This document shows, one piece after another, positions 14,021 through 32,308 of a DNA stretch of 38,713 nt (the stretch's first letter is position 1; each line of letters begins with the position of its first letter). The notes below the pieces were generated by a model. That model made no database searches and was not told the origin of the DNA. It saw only the letters and a program-made list of their open reading frames with translations. The DNA comes from Fischerella sp. CENA71 (GTDB lineage: Bacteria; Cyanobacteriota; Cyanobacteriia; Cyanobacteriales; Nostocaceae): positions 1-38,713 of the forward strand of contig JANBVI010000051.1 in the NCBI GenBank assembly GCA_024239075.1. The letters are read 5' to 3'. The translations under genes and the position numbers were made by a program.

Positions 14021-14060
14021 GCGTGAACTACCCACACAGACCTGACGGTACAGTGTGGGC
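14021..14060 (-). ncRNA. IS605-type right-end hairpin / omega-RNA 3' scaffold remnant
   Basis: CCCACAC at 14031-14037 pairs with GTGTGGG at 14053-14059, with an inner ACC/GGT pair around TGAC. On the minus strand this lies at the very 3' end of tnpB and is followed by GTAGTTCAC. That arrangement is known for the transposon end that forms the omega-RNA scaffold in TnpB systems. Bases to the left of about 14021 on the plus strand would be the guide-equivalent flank. This is inferred from position and structure; expression is unknown. Confidence 0.55.
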
Positions 14061-14654
14061 TTCCAACTTCACAGAAGATTGCCTCATCTTGGACTTGCGT
14101 CCGCGAATAGGTCTTACATCCTCTCCATTGGCGTTAGCCTCCCCCGTCCCAGAGCAGGAGAGCATTCTGATACCTTCTGCTCTAATATTTACAGCTGCGT
14201 TGCCATCTCTATCGTGATGAGTTCCACAACTTGGGCAAATCCAAGTTCTTACATCCAACGGCAACTCAGGTATTTGGTAGTGGCAATGAGAACAGAGTTT
14301 AGAACTGGGGAAGCATCGATTTATTTCTACCAACTTTCCACCACTACGCTCCAACTTGTAGCTGAGGAAGTTTACAAAGGTTCCCCATCCAGTATCAGAT
14401 ATTGCTTTTGCTAGTTTATGGTTACGAACCATGCCCTTGAGGTTGAGGTTTTCGACTACTACAACTTGGTTGTGAGCAACTATCTTTCTAGACAGTTTGT
14501 GTAGATAGTCTTGGCGGACATTGCTAATTTGTTCATATACCCTAGCGACAGTCTTGTGAGCTTTTTGACGACGATTACTACCCTTGTGCTTTCGTGCAGC
14601 AATACGTTGTTTTACAGCTAGTTTCTTTTGATACCGCCAGAGCAATCCCGCCAC
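14028..14654 (-). pseudogene. tnpB: 5'-truncated IS200/IS605-type tnpB (OrfB) remnant
   Basis: A 208-residue frame corresponds to about the second half of TnpB. Visible are the basic helix segment KHKGSNRRQKAHKTVARVYEQISNVRQDYLHKLS, the RuvC-II strand VVVVENLNLKGM with its Glu, the zinc-binding motif CSHC...CPSC, and the RuvC-III motif HDRDGNAAVNI with its Asp. The N-terminal domain and the RuvC-I Asp are absent, where full-length TnpB is about 400 residues. The start would be GTG 14652-14654. No tnpA is adjacent. Loss of RuvC-I means it should not cut DNA. The last codons run into the element's end hairpin. It is inserted between two plus-strand genes. Confidence 0.8.
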
Positions 14655-24517: not shown

Positions 24518-26152
24518 TTACTCTATTTTGTAGATTGGCAGTTGGACTTTAAATGTAGCTCCTTGACCGATTCCCTCACTAGTAGCATAAACATGACCGT
24601 GGTGTAGTTCAACTAAGTGATGAACGATAGCCAGTCCTAATCCCAATCCTCCATATTTTCTAGTTGTAGTACCATCTGCTTGGCGAAAGCGATCGAACAC
24701 GTAAGGTAAAAATTCGGAACTGATACCTTGTCCTGTATCAGTAACTGTAATTTGGGCTAAGGAGTCAATTTGCTCAAGCCAAACCTGCACTTGACCAGTA
24801 GGAGGAGTAAATTTAATAGCATTAGATAGGAGATTAGAGACAATTTGCTGCAAGCGTTCTGCATCGCCCATAACTGGACTGATGAAAGGACTAAGCATGG
24901 ACTCTATTTGAATTGACTTGGCTTGAGCTTGTGGTTGTATATCTTCAATTGCAGCATGAACGATTGGAACTAGGTAAAGAGGTTGTAACTCCAAACGCAG
25001 CTTGTCCTGAATGATCATGGAAACATCAAGGATATCTTCAATCAATTTTTTCTGCTGTTTGGCGTTACGTTCAATTGTCTCTAATGCTTTGGTGGCGATC
25101 GCTTCATTTAATTTTCGATTTTTCAGTATCTGCGCCCAACCCAACATAGAATTAAGCGGTGTACGAAGTTCGTGAGAAACGACAGCTAAGAATTCATCTT
25201 TGAGTCGGTTTGCTTTCTCAGCTTCTTCTCTCGCTGCTTGCTCTTGACGTATTAGTTGTTTACGTTCTTCTTCAACTTGTCGGCGTTCTGTTGTATCGCG
25301 CCAAGTCACAACTACCCCATCTCCAAACTTCACAGCACGAATATCATATGCTGTTTGCTTGTTGGTAGTTGATTGTTGATTATTATTTATTAACCATTCC
25401 CCTTGTCCCCCCTGTCCCTCTCTTCCTAATTTTGACTTTTGACTTTTGACTTTTGACTTATTTTGTCCCCCATCTTCCAACAATAATTCCTTCACTAGTG
25501 ATTCACCCGTTTCTACAACTCGACAGTATTCTGTAAATAGACCACTTGTCTGATGTATAGGCATAAGTTCGCACAAACACTTACCTAATTGCTCTTCTTG
25601 TGTAAACTGGTGATTTTCACAAGCGGCTGCATTCACATAATCAATACGAAAATCTGTTATCTTACCTGATTTGTCACGGATAGCAGAATAAATGCCAAAG
25701 CAATCTAGGATAGTTTCTACAGATGTACGAAATAATTCTTCACTCTTACGTAATTCTGCCTCTGCTTGCTTGAGTAATTTTCGTTCTTCGGCTTCTCGCA
25801 AGGCTCGCTCTACTGCTGGAACTAGTCGCTCCAAGCGTTGTTTGAGTACATAATCTGTAGCTCCACTTTTGAGGGTTTCAATAGCTCGCTCTTCACCAAG
25901 TATGCCCGAAATAATAATAAATGGTACTTCAGGACAAATAGCCCGAGCAAGCTCTAAAGCAGAAAAGCCATCAAAGGAGGGAAGAGCGTAATCAGCCAGA
26001 ATTAAATCCAAGGTTTCAGTTTTGAGAGCTTCTATAAAGTCTGCACGAGTTTCTACTCGTACCAACTCGCAATTAATTTTACTTTTTGCCAAAGCTGCAC
26101 CGATCAACTCGGCGTCTGCCCAAGAATCTTCCAGCAGCAGAATACGCATCAT
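24518..26152 (-). CDS. Hybrid REC-PAS-histidine kinase
   Basis: About 544 residues. An N-terminal receiver domain begins MRILLLEDSWADAELIGAAL, with phospho-acceptor Asp54 in LADYALPSF. A PAS-type sensor follows (SVETILDCFGIYSAIRDKSG...TWRDTTERRQ), then a coiled coil, then HisKA with the phospho-His in AVVSHELRTPLNSMLGW near residue 325. HATPase_c shows the N box (NLLSNAIKFT), G1 (VTDTGQGISS) and G2 (GLGLGLAIVHHL). I start at ATG 26152, immediately before the receiver fold; an upstream ATG at 26227 would add 25 unrelated residues. The PAS domain contains an in-frame repeat-derived insert of about 36 residues (see the repeat entry). It is probably co-regulated with the next upstream kinase and the Rcp-like regulator. 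Confidence 0.9.
   Translation of the reverse strand: MMRILLLEDSWADAELIGAALAKSKINCELVRVETRADFIEALKTETLDLILADYALPSFDGFSALELARAICPEVPFIIISGILGEERAIETLKSGATDYVLKQRLERLVPAVERALREAEERKLLKQAEAELRKSEELFRTSVETILDCFGIYSAIRDKSGKITDFRIDYVNAAACENHQFTQEEQLGKCLCELMPIHQTSGLFTEYCRVVETGESLVKELLLEDGGQNKSKVKSQKSKLGREGQGGQGEWLINNNQQSTTNKQTAYDIRAVKFGDGVVVTWRDTTERRQVEEERKQLIRQEQAAREEAEKANRLKDEFLAVVSHELRTPLNSMLGWAQILKNRKLNEAIATKALETIERNAKQQKKLIEDILDVSMIIQDKLRLELQPLYLVPIVHAAIEDIQPQAQAKSIQIESMLSPFISPVMGDAERLQQIVSNLLSNAIKFTPPTGQVQVWLEQIDSLAQITVTDTGQGISSEFLPYVFDRFRQADGTTTRKYGGLGLGLAIVHHLVELHHGHVYATSEGIGQGATFKVQLPIYKIE
25362..25475 (-). repeat. Intergenic-type repeat cluster inserted in-frame inside a histidine kinase
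   Basis: Four TTTTGAC units at 25429-25456 are flanked by GTTGATT-like units (25367-25381) and runs of CCCCTTGTCCC type (25398-25420). Such material normally lies between genes in this order. Here it encodes a Lys/Ser/Gln/Gly-rich loop (GQNKSKVKSQKSKLGREG, then NNNQQSTTNKQ) between two strands of the PAS domain and keeps the frame open. Confidence 0.8.
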
Positions 26153-26457: not shown

Positions 26458-27954
26458 TTAAATATTTGCTTTCGGTAGAGTAAAGTAAATTTTTGCCCCT
26501 TGATTGATGGCTCCCTCTGCCCAGACTCTACCATGATGTCTGTGAATAATTCGCTGGATGTTGGCCAGTCCTATACCTGTTCCTTCAAATTGGGTTTCGT
26601 TGTGGAGGCGTTGAAATATGCCAAATAAGCGATTGACATATTGCATATCAAATCCCACACCATTATCTTGGATGAAAAAAATAGTTTCTTGCTCATCCTC
26701 AATACTGCCAATAGTAATGACTGGTTGGTGACATGGTTGAGTGAACTTAACAGCATTTTCAATCAAATTTTGCCATACAAGGCGTAACAGAGAGCGATCG
26801 CCCCACACATGAGGTAGTCGCTGTAAATACCAAATTATATGTTTATCAGGAAAAAGCATTTCTGTCTGTTGTTTTGCTTCCCAAACTAGGCGATTCATAT
26901 CAACTGTAGAGTAGTACATTTCTGCACGTCCGGTACGGGAGTAAGTCAGCAAATCATCTACTAGTTCGCCTGCTCGGTGAGTTAATTCTAAAATTGCTTG
27001 CAAATAATGCAAGCTTGTTTCATCACTGGTTGTGGTTTCTAGGTGTTCTTTCAATATATTTGCAAATCCATCTATTTGGCGAATAGGCGATCGCAAATCA
27101 TGGGATACTGAATAAGCAAAAGCTTCTAGTTCACTGTTAATGGCTTCTAGTTCGGCTGTACGTTCTTGGACTCGACGTTCTAAAGTTTGGTTAAACTGAA
27201 GAATTTCTGCTTCGGATTGCTTACGCTGTGTGATATCTTCCACTAAGCCATCTATAAAAGTTTCACCATCTAATTGATTGAGGGTTTCGTTGAAAAGCAC
27301 CCAGATGTTTTTACCGTCGGGGCGTTGTAAGTGTATCTCCCGTTCCCACTCTTTCCCAAATTGACGCTCGTTAGTCATAAAAGAGTAGAGTTGTTCACAA
27401 ATAAATGATTGCACCTCCTCTAAGGATGGCAAACCTAAAATATTTAAAAAAGCCGTATTTACATCTAAAATTTTCGCTTGGGGTGTAATACGGAATACAC
27501 CTATTCTTAATTGATTCAATAATGACTGTAACCGTAGTTCGAGCTGGGCTGCTTTACGGCTAGTTTGATATTGTTGCCAAACTGAACGTACAGCTTGGGT
27601 GAGGCGAAGAAAATGTTTTGTGGATTTGATTACGTAGTCATCTAATCCCGCTTTCATTGCCTCAACTGCAATTTCTTGGGAACCTGTGTTGGTAAACATA
27701 ATCACAGGGCAATGACGGCGAGATTTGACAGCACGCAAAACTTCTAAGCCGGTCGTCCAATTGAGTTGATAATCAGTAATAACTAAATCAAATTTATCTG
27801 CTACTAATGCCTGATTCAATGCACTGGTATCAATTATTTCTATCACTCGGACTTGAGGAAATTCTCGGCTTAATTCTCTCATCACCAACAGGCGATCATC
27901 TGGATTATCATCTACCAGCAAAATTCGTTGAATTGAATTATTCTGAGTACTCAT
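26458..27954 (-). CDS. Hybrid REC-PAS-histidine kinase
   Basis: A 498-residue cytosolic protein. The receiver domain at residues 9-130 begins RILLVDDNPDDRLLVMREL, with the phospho-acceptor in LVITDYQLNW and the conserved Lys in YVIKSTKHF. A PAS domain (about 145-255) ends LVEDITQRKQSE, followed by a coiled coil RRVQERTAELEAINSELEAF. HisKA has the phospho-His in FAYSVSHDLRSPIRQIDGF. HATPase_c has N box LVWQNLIENAVKF, G1 FIQDNGVGFDM and G2 GTGIGLANIQRI. HisKA/HATPase sequences of this type match phytochrome-like cyanobacterial kinases, but no GAF/PHY chromophore domain is present. It lies 100 bases downstream of the Rcp-like regulator, its likely partner. Confidence 0.9.
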   Translation of the reverse strand: MSTQNNSIQRILLVDDNPDDRLLVMRELSREFPQVRVIEIIDTSALNQALVADKFDLVITDYQLNWTTGLEVLRAVKSRRHCPVIMFTNTGSQEIAVEAMKAGLDDYVIKSTKHFLRLTQAVRSVWQQYQTSRKAAQLELRLQSLLNQLRIGVFRITPQAKILDVNTAFLNILGLPSLEEVQSFICEQLYSFMTNERQFGKEWEREIHLQRPDGKNIWVLFNETLNQLDGETFIDGLVEDITQRKQSEAEILQFNQTLERRVQERTAELEAINSELEAFAYSVSHDLRSPIRQIDGFANILKEHLETTTSDETSLHYLQAILELTHRAGELVDDLLTYSRTGRAEMYYSTVDMNRLVWEAKQQTEMLFPDKHIIWYLQRLPHVWGDRSLLRLVWQNLIENAVKFTQPCHQPVITIGSIEDEQETIFFIQDNGVGFDMQYVNRLFGIFQRLHNETQFEGTGIGLANIQRIIHRHHGRVWAEGAINQGAKIYFTLPKANI

Positions 27955-28526: not shown

Positions 28527-28688
28527 GACATTTTTCATTTCTGGACGCCAGTAGAAAAATAAATAGTAGAAAATTTGGTTGTGCTAAACAGAATTTTCAT
28601 ATCAATGTTTAGTTGTCAAATGTATACTATTCGAGTGGATGATCACAAAAAGACTCTTATAGCATGACATAATTCTATCTCACGCTCT

Positions 28689-28702
28689 GTACGGTAGCGT
28701 AC
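28689..28702. promoter_or_regulatory. GTACG-N4-CGTAC palindrome, NtcA/Crp-type site (copy 1)
   Basis: GTACGGTAGCGTAC fits GTAN8TAC and has a 5-base perfect half-site on each side. It is the exact reverse complement of copy 2 and shares the flank ATAAGC with it. It lies upstream of the Rcp-like gene. On the minus strand TATAAG, a plausible -10 box, follows 27 bases downstream. Confidence 0.7.
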
Positions 28703-28762
28703 ATAAGCTTCAGATTTTTTCCAAAAACGACTTGTTGATATTGCTAAAAAAGCGGGAATACT

Positions 28763-29461
28763 TCACTTTTGTTCTTCATTGAGCAAGCGATCGAATTCTT
28801 TTTTAATAAAACCGTAACACTCACAAGCAGTTGCCTCTAAAGCTAGGCGATTAAGAATTGTAATTCGACCTCGGCTGTAGCGGATAATACCTGCTTGTTG
28901 CAACAAACCAGCTGCCACAGTTACACCAGAGCGTCGCGTACCCAGTAACTCAGCAATAAACTCTTGAGTAATCTGTATAGTATCAGAAGCTGTATGGTCT
29001 TGGGCAGTAAGTAGCCAACGAGCAAGTCGTGCTTCTAGTGAATGATGACGATTGCAGGCAGCAGTTTGACTAATTTGGGTAAGTAAGGCTTGGGTATAAA
29101 GTAACAATCGCCTTTGTAGAACTCCACCACGAATAAATTCCCGTTTGAGGACTTTGGTATCTATTTTCATCGCAGTACCAGCAACTTGCACAATTGTGCG
29201 AGTTGTTGTTAAATCGCCTCCTAAAAATGCAGGATAGCCTACAACTCCATTGCTACCCACCATACCAACTTCTGTTGTCGAACCATCCTCAAGAACAGCA
29301 ATTAAAGACACCATTGCTCGATTCGGGAAATAGACATGTTTAATATTTTCCCCCGCTTCATAAAGAACTTGACCGAGGGAAAGTCGCACCTCTTCTAGAT
29401 GGGGAGCAAGGCGCTGGAACTCCAAATCTGGTAAAGCCAGCAGTAGCTGATTAACTAGCAC
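28763..29461 (-). CDS. Crp/Fnr-family transcriptional regulator
   Basis: A 232-residue protein. Residues 1-120 form a cyclic-nucleotide-binding-type beta roll (LSLGQVLYEAGENIKHVYFPNRAMVSLIAVLEDGSTTEVGMVGSNGVVGYPAFLGG). The phosphate-binding cassette of true cAMP receptors (GExxxxxxRxA) is replaced by GMVGSNGVVGYPAF, so cAMP is unlikely to be the ligand. Residues about 170-215 are a winged helix-turn-helix with recognition segment LGTRRSGVTVAAGLLQQAG. The C-terminus (ATACECYGFIKKEFDRLL) is shared with its paralogue at 29655. The start is GTG 29459-29461, because the frame closes 8 codons upstream. A GTACG palindrome lies 65 bases upstream, consistent with autoregulation. Confidence 0.9.
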   Translation of the reverse strand: MLVNQLLLALPDLEFQRLAPHLEEVRLSLGQVLYEAGENIKHVYFPNRAMVSLIAVLEDGSTTEVGMVGSNGVVGYPAFLGGDLTTTRTIVQVAGTAMKIDTKVLKREFIRGGVLQRRLLLYTQALLTQISQTAACNRHHSLEARLARWLLTAQDHTASDTIQITQEFIAELLGTRRSGVTVAAGLLQQAGIIRYSRGRITILNRLALEATACECYGFIKKEFDRLLNEEQK

Positions 29462-29525
29462 GGCATCGCTTCCATCACTTCTAAATCAAGCATCTTAAAT
29501 TGACATGGCTGGAGTAACCCTGTCT

Positions 29526-29539
29526 GTACGCTACCGTAC
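29526..29539. promoter_or_regulatory. GTACG-N4-CGTAC palindrome (copy 2)
   Basis: GTACGCTACCGTAC matches GTAN8TAC and lies 65 bases upstream of the GTG start of the first Crp/Fnr gene. On the minus strand a TAAGAT box follows 28 bases downstream, nearly the same spacing as at copy 1. The segment between site and box contains ATGTCA in both copies at almost the same position. Confidence 0.75.
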
Positions 29540-29654
29540 ATAAGCACTAGACTTCTTGGACAAGTAAGGTAAAGTCTAAAAAGCAGGATTTTTCTTTTCC
29601 TTTTCTAATCCATTATTTCTTTTTGTCTGTTGCAAAGGCTAATTGGCAAAAGTA

Positions 29655-30368
29655 TTAATTATTAAGCAAACGGGCAAACTCATTTGTTACTATGCCATAA
29701 CATTCGCAAGCAGTTGCTTCTAGTGCAGTTCGGTTCAGAATTATAATTTTTCCACGACTGTAGCGGATCATGCCTTCTTCTTGTAAATTACCTGCTGCAA
29801 CTGTGACTGTGGCACGACGGGTTCCCAACAAATCGGCGATATACTGCTGAGTTAAAAATATTTCATCTCGACCAAGACAGTCTTGAACGCACAACAGCCA
29901 ACGAGCAAGTTGTTGTTCTGTGGAATGGTGAAATTTGCAAACCGCATTTTGCCCAATCTGGGTTAAGAGTGCCTGGGTGTATAGCAGTAGTTTTTTTTGT
30001 AATACTCCCCCCTGCTCAAATTGACGCTGAAGGATTTCAGCATTAATTTTCAAAGCACCATCTGCTATTTGTACAAGCGCACGGCTATTAGTAAATTTCC
30101 CGCCCAAAAATGCCGGAATGCCAATCATACCCTCATTTCCCACCATGGCAAATTCGGTGGTTGAGTTATCCTTGAGAACGGAAATTAAAGACACCATTGA
30201 GCGGATGGGAAAGTAGACTTGTCGAATCACTTCCCCACGATCATAGAGAATTTGCCCTTGAGAGAGCCTTGTATATTCTAGATGGGGAGCCAGGTGCTGA
30301 TACTCCTCATCCGGTAAAGATGCCAAGAGTTGATTAATCGACCTGGGATCACTATCGGATGGAGACAT
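29655..30368 (-). CDS. Crp/Fnr-family transcriptional regulator, paralogue
   Basis: A 237-residue protein, collinear with the preceding gene over nearly its whole length: SINQLLASLPDEEYQHLAPHLEYTRLSQGQILYDRGEVIRQVYFPIRSMVSLISVLKDNSTTEFAMVGNEGMIGIPAFLGG. It has the same altered cyclic-nucleotide cassette, and a winged helix-turn-helix with recognition segment LGTRRATVTVAAGNLQEEG. The ends match too (ATACECYGIVTNEFARLL). The two proteins look like an old tandem duplication. Recognition-helix residues differ mainly at SG versus AT, so they may bind overlapping sites. The start ATG 30368 gives a 10-residue polar lead. A GTACG palindrome lies 147 bases upstream. Confidence 0.9.
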   Translation of the reverse strand: MSPSDSDPRSINQLLASLPDEEYQHLAPHLEYTRLSQGQILYDRGEVIRQVYFPIRSMVSLISVLKDNSTTEFAMVGNEGMIGIPAFLGGKFTNSRALVQIADGALKINAEILQRQFEQGGVLQKKLLLYTQALLTQIGQNAVCKFHHSTEQQLARWLLCVQDCLGRDEIFLTQQYIADLLGTRRATVTVAAGNLQEEGMIRYSRGKIIILNRTALEATACECYGIVTNEFARLLNN

Positions 30369-30514
30369 GCTGTTGTCTGTTGGCAGAACAGTCAGGACGT
30401 TACATAACTGCTAGAGAATGAGAAAAACATACTCTGAGAGCTAGTGACGACGTGAGAGGTTGTCATAGGTTAATAAAAATTTGCAAACGACTTCTTCTCC
30501 CTACTGGAAGATTC

Positions 30515-30528
30515 GTACGTTAGCGTAC
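30515..30528. promoter_or_regulatory. GTACG-N4-CGTAC palindrome (copy 3)
   Basis: GTACGTTAGCGTAC matches GTAN8TAC, with one base different from copy 1 in the spacer. It lies 147 bases upstream of the second Crp/Fnr start and 95 bases after the stop codon of the DUF4118 kinase gene. Confidence 0.7.
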
Positions 30529-30582
30529 AGATTATAAAGGAAGAAGATAAGAGATGGACGGATTGAGAGATGGAGAGAAACC

Positions 30583-30622: not shown

Positions 30623-32308
30623 CTAGCAATTATCTGCTAATGGCAACTCAATCCAAAATTGGCTACCCTGTCCTAATTGCGATTCAACTCCTACACTACC
30701 TCCCATACGCTCAATTCCCCGTTTGATAATCGCCAAACCGATACCAGTACCCGGATAAGATTCTATGCCATGCAAGCGCTCAAAAGTTCTGAATATTCGT
30801 TGTTGATGTTGGCTAGCAATGCCAATTCCGTTATCTCCTACCCATAGACGAATAAATTTAGAGGAAGATGATGTAGAAGACGCGGAGAAGGACAGACGCG
30901 GTGACGCTTCTGAAGATGATGTAGAAGACGCGGAGAAGGAGAGACGCGGTGACGCGGAGAGTGTCTCATCTGTATTCCCCGTGTCAGAGTTTCCCCGCGT
31001 CTCCGTGTCAGAGTGTCCCCCTTGTCCCCCCACTCTCTCCTCTGCCCATATCCGCACTTGAGGTTTAACATCACTAGCTACAAACTTAAGGGCATTACCA
31101 ATCAAATTAATCAACACCTGTACTAAGATGCTGCGATGTGCTTTCACCATCGGTAAAGTTGACTCGATGGTTATGTGTGCTTGACTAATTTGTATATCTG
31201 AGTCTAATTCATTGATTGCGTCAGCGATCGCACTCTCCAAACTCAGCCGTTGTAGCCAAATTTCGCCCCGCCCTAGACGACTGTAAGCAAGCAAATCCAG
31301 AATTAAAGTGTCCATCCGTGCAGCAGCCGTAACAATACGGTTGGTATATTCTTGTGCTGTTTCGTCTAAATTAGATTTGTAGTCTTCTTGTAAAGCTTGG
31401 GCTAGTCCTTGCATAGCACGCAATGGGGCGCGTAAATCATGGGAGACACTGTAGGTAAAAGCTTCTAATTCCTGATTGACTTCTTGCAGTTGTGTGGTGC
31501 GTTCTTTGACTTTTTGTTCTAAGTTTTCGTTGAGTTGCTTAATTTCTGCTTCAGCTTGTTTGCGATCGCTAATATCAATAACTAGCCCACAATAACCTCG
31601 GACTTCCCCATTTTTGGCGATGTCAGGAACTAAAATAGCTTGGATATAACGCCTCCCTCCTTCTCGATAGGGAAGTTCCGCTTCATACTCAACTAAATTA
31701 CCTGCTAGTGCTTGTTCTAGTTTGTCTTTAATGATTTCGTACGCCGCTTCTCCTAAAACTTCTGCTATGTGTTTTCCGTAGATTTCTTCTGGAGATAAGC
31801 CAAACCAATCTTTGTAGGTTTTGTTAATAAACTGATAGCATTGCTGGGTATCAATATAAGAAATGCAGACGGGCAAAGAATTGGCAATTAAGTTTAACAA
31901 TTCTTGATGTTGACGACCTTTGTCTTCACTTAAGAGTAATTGTTGGCTAATTGTTTGCGTATTTCGCCGAGCTGTCTTTAGGGAGTTAATGAGTGCAACA
32001 ATACATAACCCCTCCAGCAAAAATATAATCAGTTGGAAATTTGTCCACAAGTGAGTGCTGAATAATGATCTAGCAGGAGTTAAAAAAAAATAAGTACTCA
32101 CTAAACCAGACAAAACAACTGCCAATATACCGGGGCCAATTCCTCCATATCGACTAGTCGCCATTATGGCAGCAAAAAATAGTAAAAATGGTGTTTCGTA
32201 TTGTTGACCAGACCAATAATTTAGCAGTAGTTTACCCAGTAACGCGATCGCTACAGTTGAAATTGCCATACTGTAACGCCAAACAATCCGGCGTCTTTCT
32301 TTCCACAT
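30623..32308 (-). CDS. DUF4118-PAS-histidine kinase
   Basis: A 561-residue membrane sensor kinase. Residues 12-110 have three or four membrane segments of the KdpD-like DUF4118 type (TPFLLFFAAIMATSRYGGIGPGILAVVLSGL). A PAS domain follows (about 135-255, ending VIDISDRKQAEAE), then a coiled coil. HisKA has the phospho-His in FTYSVSHDLRAPLRAMQGL. HATPase_c has N box LVQVLINLIGNALKF, G1 VGDNGIGIAS and G2 GTGIGLAIIKRG. Between N box and G1, residues about 423-484 are a repeat-derived Ser-rich insert (see repeat entry). No receiver is fused. The likely partner is the Rcp-like regulator or an unlinked one. The gene lies at the upstream end of the minus-strand signalling island. Confidence 0.9.
   Translation of the reverse strand: MWKERRRIVWRYSMAISTVAIALLGKLLLNYWSGQQYETPFLLFFAAIMATSRYGGIGPGILAVVLSGLVSTYFFLTPARSLFSTHLWTNFQLIIFLLEGLCIVALINSLKTARRNTQTISQQLLLSEDKGRQHQELLNLIANSLPVCISYIDTQQCYQFINKTYKDWFGLSPEEIYGKHIAEVLGEAAYEIIKDKLEQALAGNLVEYEAELPYREGGRRYIQAILVPDIAKNGEVRGYCGLVIDISDRKQAEAEIKQLNENLEQKVKERTTQLQEVNQELEAFTYSVSHDLRAPLRAMQGLAQALQEDYKSNLDETAQEYTNRIVTAAARMDTLILDLLAYSRLGRGEIWLQRLSLESAIADAINELDSDIQISQAHITIESTLPMVKAHRSILVQVLINLIGNALKFVASDVKPQVRIWAEERVGGQGGHSDTETRGNSDTGNTDETLSASPRLSFSASSTSSSEASPRLSFSASSTSSSSKFIRLWVGDNGIGIASQHQQRIFRTFERLHGIESYPGTGIGLAIIKRGIERMGGSVGVESQLGQGSQFWIELPLADNC
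30857..31040 (-). repeat. 48-bp tandem repeat and GC-rich repeat DNA inside the ATPase domain
   Basis: Two 44-base copies at 30864-30907 and 30912-30955 (period 48) differ by a single base. They encode the 16-residue unit ASPRLSFSASSTSSSE. Adjacent GC-rich sequence (GTGTCAGAG, CCCCGCGTCTCCG, CCCCCTTGTCCCCC) resembles intergenic repeats of these genomes. The frame stays open through the whole block. Confidence 0.85.

Follow-up and report, generated by a model that had tools for sequence, protein, structure and literature searches.

Three short palindromes in the 38.7-kb contig JANBVI010000051.1 of Fischerella sp. CENA71 (referred to as the window; the whole genome comprises 7.47 Mb) are probably, with a likelihood that we put at about 0.84, the operators of two Crp/Fnr-type regulators, Crp1 and Crp2, that are encoded between them, and would control crp2, crp1 and a response regulator–kinase–kinase gene set. 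The palindromes, GTACGGTAGCGTAC at 28689–28702, GTACGCTACCGTAC at 29526–29539 and GTACGTTAGCGTAC at 30515–30528 (copies 1, 2 and 3), lie exactly where an earlier sequence-only reading of the window had placed them and, as that reading had claimed, precede on the minus strand the genes of a single-domain response regulator, crp1 and crp2, respectively. None of the three falls within an open frame of at least 60 aa. The minus-strand order is HK0, operator 3, crp2, operator 2, crp1, operator 1, response regulator, HK3 and HK4, the HK genes encoding histidine kinases. In the mechanism that we propose, each Crp dimer would read two GTACG half-sites at the usual Crp spacing (GTAC-N6-GTAC), and Crp1 and Crp2, with crp2, crp1 and the response regulator–kinase–kinase genes as their targets, would make up a small closed circuit. 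This circuit would consist of the three sites, no other strong site being apparent in the genome.

Distribution of the operator

Within the window, the palindrome has three matches at up to two mismatches, compared to a mean of 0.51 in shuffled sequences, and three matches were reached in one of 100 shuffles. Genome-wide, the pattern GTACGNNNNCGTAC has five copies, three of which are at this locus, the remaining two being located within a 544-aa open frame and near a contig end outside any 80-aa frame, respectively. The pattern GTACGNTANCGTAC has three copies, all at this locus (reversed control pattern: one), and the same number, invariably at this locus, in each of the four other congeneric genomes (L005–L009). 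Searching with the 20-mer TNTGTRCGNTANCGYACANA at up to one mismatch exclusively returns the same three sites in each of the five genomes; at two mismatches, two further sites appear in the Fischerella sp. CENA71 genome. The outcome that the sequence-only reading had named as refuting a regulatory role, a motif scattered at random positions unlinked to gene starts, is not the case in this genome, and conservation in orthologous loci, which it had proposed as a check, extends to all three operators in 5/5 genomes of the genus. Copy 1 forms a conserved island in an otherwise diverged region upstream of the response regulator gene in these five genomes. Two of them (L006 and L009) carry unrelated insertions of at least 100 bp between crp2 and operator 2, with the operator intact. 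Regulon candidates were sought by pattern searches. Note that genome searches at two mismatches are noisy (GTACGNTANCGTAC, 87 forward versus 384 reversed-control matches; 20-mer, 5 versus 84) and that these reversed controls say little because the reversed patterns are similar to GCGATCGC, a common octamer.

Copies 1 and 2 do share the flanks CTGTACG...CGTACATAAGC that had been pointed out, and the ATGTCA box is also there, beginning 18 nt (response regulator) or 19 nt (crp1) past the palindrome. The two copies had in addition been described as exact reverse complements of each other. This holds in Fischerella sp. CENA71 but not in the other four genomes of the genus, where copy 2 equals copy 1; the relation is therefore incidental, two centre positions merely varying.

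The three palindromes are copies of a 20-bp family operator, T[A/C]TGT[A/G]CGNTANCG[C/T]ACA[G/T]A, and sequence comparison indicates that this operator is family-wide, which goes beyond what the sequence-only reading had foreseen. Plasmid-borne relatives gave the first hint that the site is older than Cyanobacteria: among eight records, the exact GTACG-N4-CGTAC core is found 5′ of the gene in Halomonas and Azospirillum, with one mismatch in Skermanella, and not at all in five, one of which is a Calothrix plasmid. When named genomes were scanned with alignment A1, 79 loci were obtained, which are the best matches to an Azospirillum-led alignment and no random sample; a motif match of at least 9/10 was present within 500 bp upstream in 21 of them and inside the gene in none (0/79, this control region being inside the gene at all loci).

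More specifically, a de novo search of all 5-mer dyads (spacers 0–12, one mismatch allowed, no seed, blind to the window) ranked frames of one and the same site at the top in 74 non-cyanobacterial upstream regions: TATGT-N10-ACATA (20/74; 0.33 expected), GTACG-N4-CGTAC (18/74; 0.35 expected), TGTAC-N6-GTACA (15/74; 0.17 expected) and GTGCG-N4-CGCAC (28/74; 2.52 expected). The top cyanobacterial dyad was GTACG-N4-CGTAC, found in 28 of 102 upstream regions (0.07 expected) that were not selected by motif and that left out the Fischerella sp. CENA71 genome. Position matrices of the two sets agree on the consensus, with A preferred at [A/G] in cyanobacteria (0.83). In a cross-group prediction at 10 bits, each matrix being applied to the set on which it had not been trained, a site was recovered in 47/120 cyanobacterial upstream regions (0.75% of shuffles) and in 38/74 others (0.27% of shuffles). 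This test is not fully independent, since both matrices were begun from one consensus seed written after the non-cyanobacterial dyad search, whereas the dyad searches are seed-free; besides, its gene-interior control (0/79) misses the gene at nine loci that have a different start, and the 120-gene set includes loci fetched by motif. Among the 104 cyanobacterial genes left without these loci, 38 have a site at 8 bits, as do 41/74 others. Site presence at this threshold changes at least 38 times on a FastTree tree.

The motif also follows the regulator gene at the level of the order. Among 388 genomes, including that of Fischerella sp. CENA71, a family gene (called at E ≤1e-40) was found in 116 and the motif in 51. 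With Fischerella sp. CENA71 left out, the motif occurs in 39/115 gene-carrying versus 11/272 gene-less genomes (Fisher p ~3e-14); the corresponding values for a reversed control pattern, 12/115 and 35/272, do not differ significantly. Forty-seven of the 58 sites outside our genome fall in gene-carrying genomes, a family gene or a piece of one (at least 60 bits) lies within 1 kb of 40/58, and 33/58 are located 0–700 bp 5′ of one. Several sites without a family gene (L104, L124, L126, L130–L134), which lie inside open frames, look like probable chance matches; three such sites (G052, G166 and G152) share one place in a 223-aa frame, which encodes a HEAT-repeat protein in G166. In three of the 11 gene-less genomes (G098, G125 and G154), the operator adjoins a short or truncated family gene (loci L090, L111 and L125). 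A second operator-like palindrome, read by eye, follows the first by ~25–75 bp in L101, L102, L230 and L237, which suggests that some family members carry tandem operators.

Finally, the operator 5′ of the response regulator gene can be compared between loci with and without a crp gene. Orthologues of this regulator occupy 55 places in 50/388 genomes, and 30 of these places were fetched with 1.5-kb flanks. The operator precedes the regulator gene in 3/3 fetched loci with an adjoining crp gene (26–29 bits) and, at 15 bits, in 0/27 fetched loci without one (best scores 13.6, 12.0 and 11.2). Operator and crp therefore co-occur at this locus. The 27 crp-less loci keep a flanking kinase gene, and some of the genomes have family genes elsewhere.

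The regulators and their promoters

Crp1 and Crp2, encoded in tandem, are paralogues with 63% identity and belong to the Crp/Fnr superfamily: HTH_Crp_2 is found in both, and the AlphaFold2 model displays the expected order of elements. The cNMP_binding domain scores above the Pfam cut-off in Crp1 and slightly under it in Crp2 (25.1 versus 27.5 bits). The scores against TIGR03697, the NtcA equivalog family, are 29.6 and 23.6 bits, far from the cut-off of 244.95. The operator spacing fits the GTxx-N6-xxAC palindrome of Crp/Fnr dimers. Crp2 has no close relative among solved structures (best 2.3e-6; 5.9e-13 with a family profile).

In a 194-row family alignment, in which Crp1 and Crp2 are P0001 and P0002, R184 and R185 are conserved at 98–99%, and so are C144, H148, C221 and C223, which equal the DNA-reading arginines in this respect. 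The AlphaFold2 model has the recognition helix at residues 185–197, C144 near the end of a long helix, H148 at the hinge that follows and, where the last helix begins, C221 and C223. The near-invariance of these four Cys/His residues may point to the sensing of metals or of redox state. Glu79 is 88% conserved and the Arg96 column lies below 85%, the equivalence of these residues to the cyclic AMP phosphate cassette having been judged by eye. LhfE, a redox-regulated protein, was considered as a relative and rejected: it is, according to the part of the source available, a kinase and unrelated (PMC6879726). As to base reading, half-site base 7 is G in 31/66 half-sites with Glu186 and otherwise G in 7/98 and A in 81 (82 sequences), the pattern predicted by the Glu181 rule of CRP. 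This link is confounded with base composition; for non-cyanobacteria alone, p = 0.078.

When 85 upstream regions were aligned on the operator and scanned for a TAnnnT box, labelled by its position, the box was most enriched at label 29 (12/47 cyanobacterial and 4/38 other upstream regions), so that the operator would be centred at −41.5, as for class II activators. In activator-dependent promoters of this class, a TAN3T −10 box is expected ~22 bp from the site. Labels 28–30 combined gave 28/255 versus 4.0 expected, and the enrichment holds after clustering at 80% (22.0/195 versus 3.1) and at 70% identity (10.4/111 versus 2.0). In the window, the response regulator promoter has TATGtCATGCT at the class II place, where the two other genera have TATGaCATAGT and TATGgGATACT; we read it as a weak extended −10 element, with the operator probably centred at ~−41.5. 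CATGCT is kept in the five genomes of the genus. TATAAG, five bases further on, may be an alternative −10 for this promoter; it becomes TATGAG in one genome. At crp1, TGtCAATTT is one base off the class II place and TAAGAT is the alternative. The operators 5′ of crp1 and of the response regulator gene would most likely mediate class II-type activation. If the TATAAT next to operator 3 belongs to the crp2 promoter, the arrangement is repressor-like, and the operator, lying 3′ of this box, could serve autorepression or a different use. A reading of the palindromes as RNA hairpins was set aside because, at two of the three genes, the candidate −10 boxes come after the operator. We infer that the proteins bind, how the genes are grouped into operons and how the paralogues share their tasks, as well as the regulatory sign at each promoter, which is least certain for crp2.

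Weighing the explanations

All three sites satisfy GTAN8TAC, and could be ordinary NtcA sites placing the locus under nitrogen control; moreover, NtcA-activated promoters are described, in the part of PMC3898017 available, as combining a site near −41.5 with a TAN3T −10 box, the same geometry as in the family. However, the GTAN8TAC core is common, with 12 matches in the window, and the fixed inner CG...CG is no NtcA feature: the operators have C and G at positions 4 and 5 and C and G at positions 10 and 11, whereas the same partial source gives T and C at positions 4 and 5 and A at positions 10 and 11 as somewhat conserved in NtcA sites (PMC3898017). The operator was found in 0/12 flanks of six distant Crp-type cyanobacterial loci, which we took as NtcA-like. 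It is equally present in Proteobacteria and others, often with GTGCG halves, and these non-cyanobacterial carriers, to our knowledge, lack NtcA. NtcA would also hardly explain why the response regulator gene has the operator solely beside crp, and the contrast between 3/3 loci with crp and 0/27 without makes it an unlikely main binder. On the strength of the inner bases, the phylogenetic range and the crp–operator co-occurrence, NtcA was rejected in this role, and we regard nitrogen control through ordinary NtcA sites as very improbable. The proposal of the sequence-only reading that the extended half-site is read by Crp1 and Crp2 and not by NtcA, so that the two proteins would regulate themselves, each other and the phosphorelay, gains support, the motif tracking the subfamily across phyla and, among the fetched response regulator loci, occurring only next to a crp gene.

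That Crp1 and Crp2 bind the operators purely as repressors, in simple negative autoregulation, strikes us as rather unlikely. Autorepression is a common self-regulatory mode, and TATAAT immediately precedes copy 3 in 5/5 genomes of the genus, but the −10 box found family-wide follows the operator at the distance typical of class II promoters, and at crp1 and the response regulator gene the candidate −10 boxes likewise come after the operator. As for the idea that the palindromes are functionless relics of a repeat family or of a tandem gene duplication, which might draw on the 63% identity of the tandem crp1 and crp2 and on the flanks common to copies 1 and 2, it is barely credible: the site is conserved amid diverged sequence upstream of the response regulator gene, outlasts the crp2–crp1 insertions in two genomes of the genus and recurs in unrelated upstream regions of other phyla. 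A mobile repeat was rejected, as the 20-mer has no further genomic copies at up to one mismatch.

Several observations weigh against the operators acting as we propose. In the 400 bp upstream, 66/104 cyanobacterial genes and 33/74 others have no site at 8 bits. At the level of the order, the total number of motif sites is no higher than that of the reversed control (58 sites in 50 genomes versus 60 in 47), so that placement alone differs, and for 18/58 sites the nearest 1 kb contains no family gene. The covariation of Glu186 with base 7 amounts to one evolutionary contrast in a tree-corrected test. In the non-cyanobacterial set, label 29 does no better than labels 26 and 12 (4/38 each), and the −10 enrichment is non-significant after clustering at 65% or 60% identity (19 and 12 clusters). 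The −10-like boxes of the window itself are not cleanly at −41.5, and crp2 has none there.

A wider history of the three operators and their two Crp/Fnr regulators can be proposed tentatively: a large, ancient Crp/Fnr subfamily, marked by an RRxxVTxAA helix, Cys144-x3-His148 and Cys221-Glu-Cys223, might activate itself through the 20-bp operator in Cyanobacteria, Proteobacteria and further phyla and sense redox state or metals through its Cys/His residues; it would have been inserted into a pre-existing kinase–regulator–kinase locus in some cyanobacteria, where it would now control the phosphorelay.

The locus, its targets and related systems

The features of the locus are collected in Table 1. 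Synteny of the cassette formed by crp, the response regulator gene, HK3 and HK4 extends to two further genera, one within the same family (G365), where crp is present twice, and one from a different family (G379), where there is a single crp gene. The response regulator itself was considered as a DNA binder and rejected, no DNA-binding domain being found with Pfam. HK0 contains a Ser-rich insert (window ~30860–31060), with SASPRLSFSASSTSSS twice, which breaks the HATPase domain and has another length in another genome of the genus. Elsewhere in the window, an open frame on the minus strand (14028–14654) resembles the C-terminal part of an IS605/TnpB-type protein, its translation having been judged by eye.

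Table 1. Coordinates of the operators, genes and candidate promoter elements in the window
Feature	Position	Strand	Evidence
Operator copy 1, 5′ of the response regulator gene	28686..28705 (core 28689–28702)	−	0 mismatches to the family 20-mer; 29.0 bits
Operator copy 2, 5′ of crp1	29523..29542 (core 29526–29539)	−	0 mismatches to the family 20-mer; 29.1 bits
Operator copy 3, 5′ of crp2	30512..30531 (core 30515–30528)	−	1 mismatch to the family 20-mer; 19.5 bits
crp2, Crp/Fnr regulator, 237 aa, RRATVT recognition helix, CECY C-terminus	29655..30368	−	Pfam HTH_Crp_2 2.4e-15; AlphaFold2 predicted local distance difference test (pLDDT) 90.3
crp1, paralogous Crp/Fnr regulator, 232 aa, GTG start	28763..29461	−	Pfam HTH_Crp_2 2.6e-14, cNMP_binding 7.2e-9
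Single-domain (Rcp-like) response regulator, 150 aa	28055..28507	−	Pfam Response_reg only
HK3, REC-PAS-histidine kinase, downstream of the response regulator	26458..27954	−	Pfam; syntenic in two other genera
HK4, second REC-PAS-histidine kinase	24518..26143	−	Pfam; syntenic in two other genera
HK0, DUF4118-PAS-histidine kinase, upstream of crp2	30623..32308	−	Pfam
Candidate −10 region, response regulator promoter: TGtCATGCT overlapping TATAAG (28656–28661)	28656..28669	−	predicted
Candidate −10 region, crp1 promoter: TGtCAATTT overlapping TAAGAT (29492–29497)	29492..29505	−	predicted; conserved in 5 genomes of the genus
TATAAT directly 5′ of operator copy 3	30531..30536	−	predicted; conserved in 5 genomes of the genus

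Beyond this locus, the operator is also found 5′ of genes encoding a GGDEF protein with DUF1816, a DUF1816 protein, an EAL protein with a cNMP domain and CheB, as well as a SpoIIE-type regulator, a CBS protein and Tll0287-like, SpoIID-type and polynucleotide-phosphorylase-type proteins. With few cases each, these wider targets are suggestive only. In one cyanobacterial family, the operator precedes the GGDEF–DUF1816 gene (L129:3815) and the DUF1816 gene (L108:2410), and at L127:2239 it lies between a crp gene and a divergent EAL–cNMP gene.

The circuit can be set beside several known systems. It shares with NtcA the Crp/Fnr fold, a palindromic GTA...TAC with equal spacing and probably, as far as the available part of PMC3898017 describes it, class II geometry; NtcA differs in that it is a distant protein governing a global regulon, whereas the operator here adds a fixed CG-NTAN-CG and would serve a small local circuit. 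The half-site spacing is that of E. coli CRP/FNR (TGTGA-N6-TCACA, compared to TGTRC-N6-GYACA here), and the Arg at the position of CRP R180 (R185 here) is nearly invariant. The class II site of E. coli CRP is at −41.5. In contrast to CRP, the equivalents of E181 and R185 are not kept, the half-site is different, and the phosphate-cassette Arg is not among the family columns conserved at 85%. Bcam1349/BerA of Burkholderia cenocepacia is described, in the parts of PMC3584217 and PMC5552954 available, as a Crp/Fnr regulator of biofilm-matrix genes that responds to cyclic di-GMP; a member of our family in Mycetohabitans adjoins an exopolysaccharide-type gene. The same parts of these two papers give no operator consensus (PMC3584217, PMC5552954). 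We found no operator for this Crp/Fnr subfamily in the open-access literature, a scope that makes the negative weak.

Altogether, the comparative tests argue that a dedicated Crp/Fnr circuit is real; it appears to be of a known kind, with an operator that we did not find described. A widespread group of Crp/Fnr proteins would thereby gain a DNA target, so that predictions of their regulons could be made and put to the test in many bacteria with simple binding assays. The presence of regulator gene and operator together in a signalling locus that elsewhere has neither would be a natural experiment in circuit rewiring, and the near-invariant Cys/His residues may offer a direct handle on the signal that is sensed.

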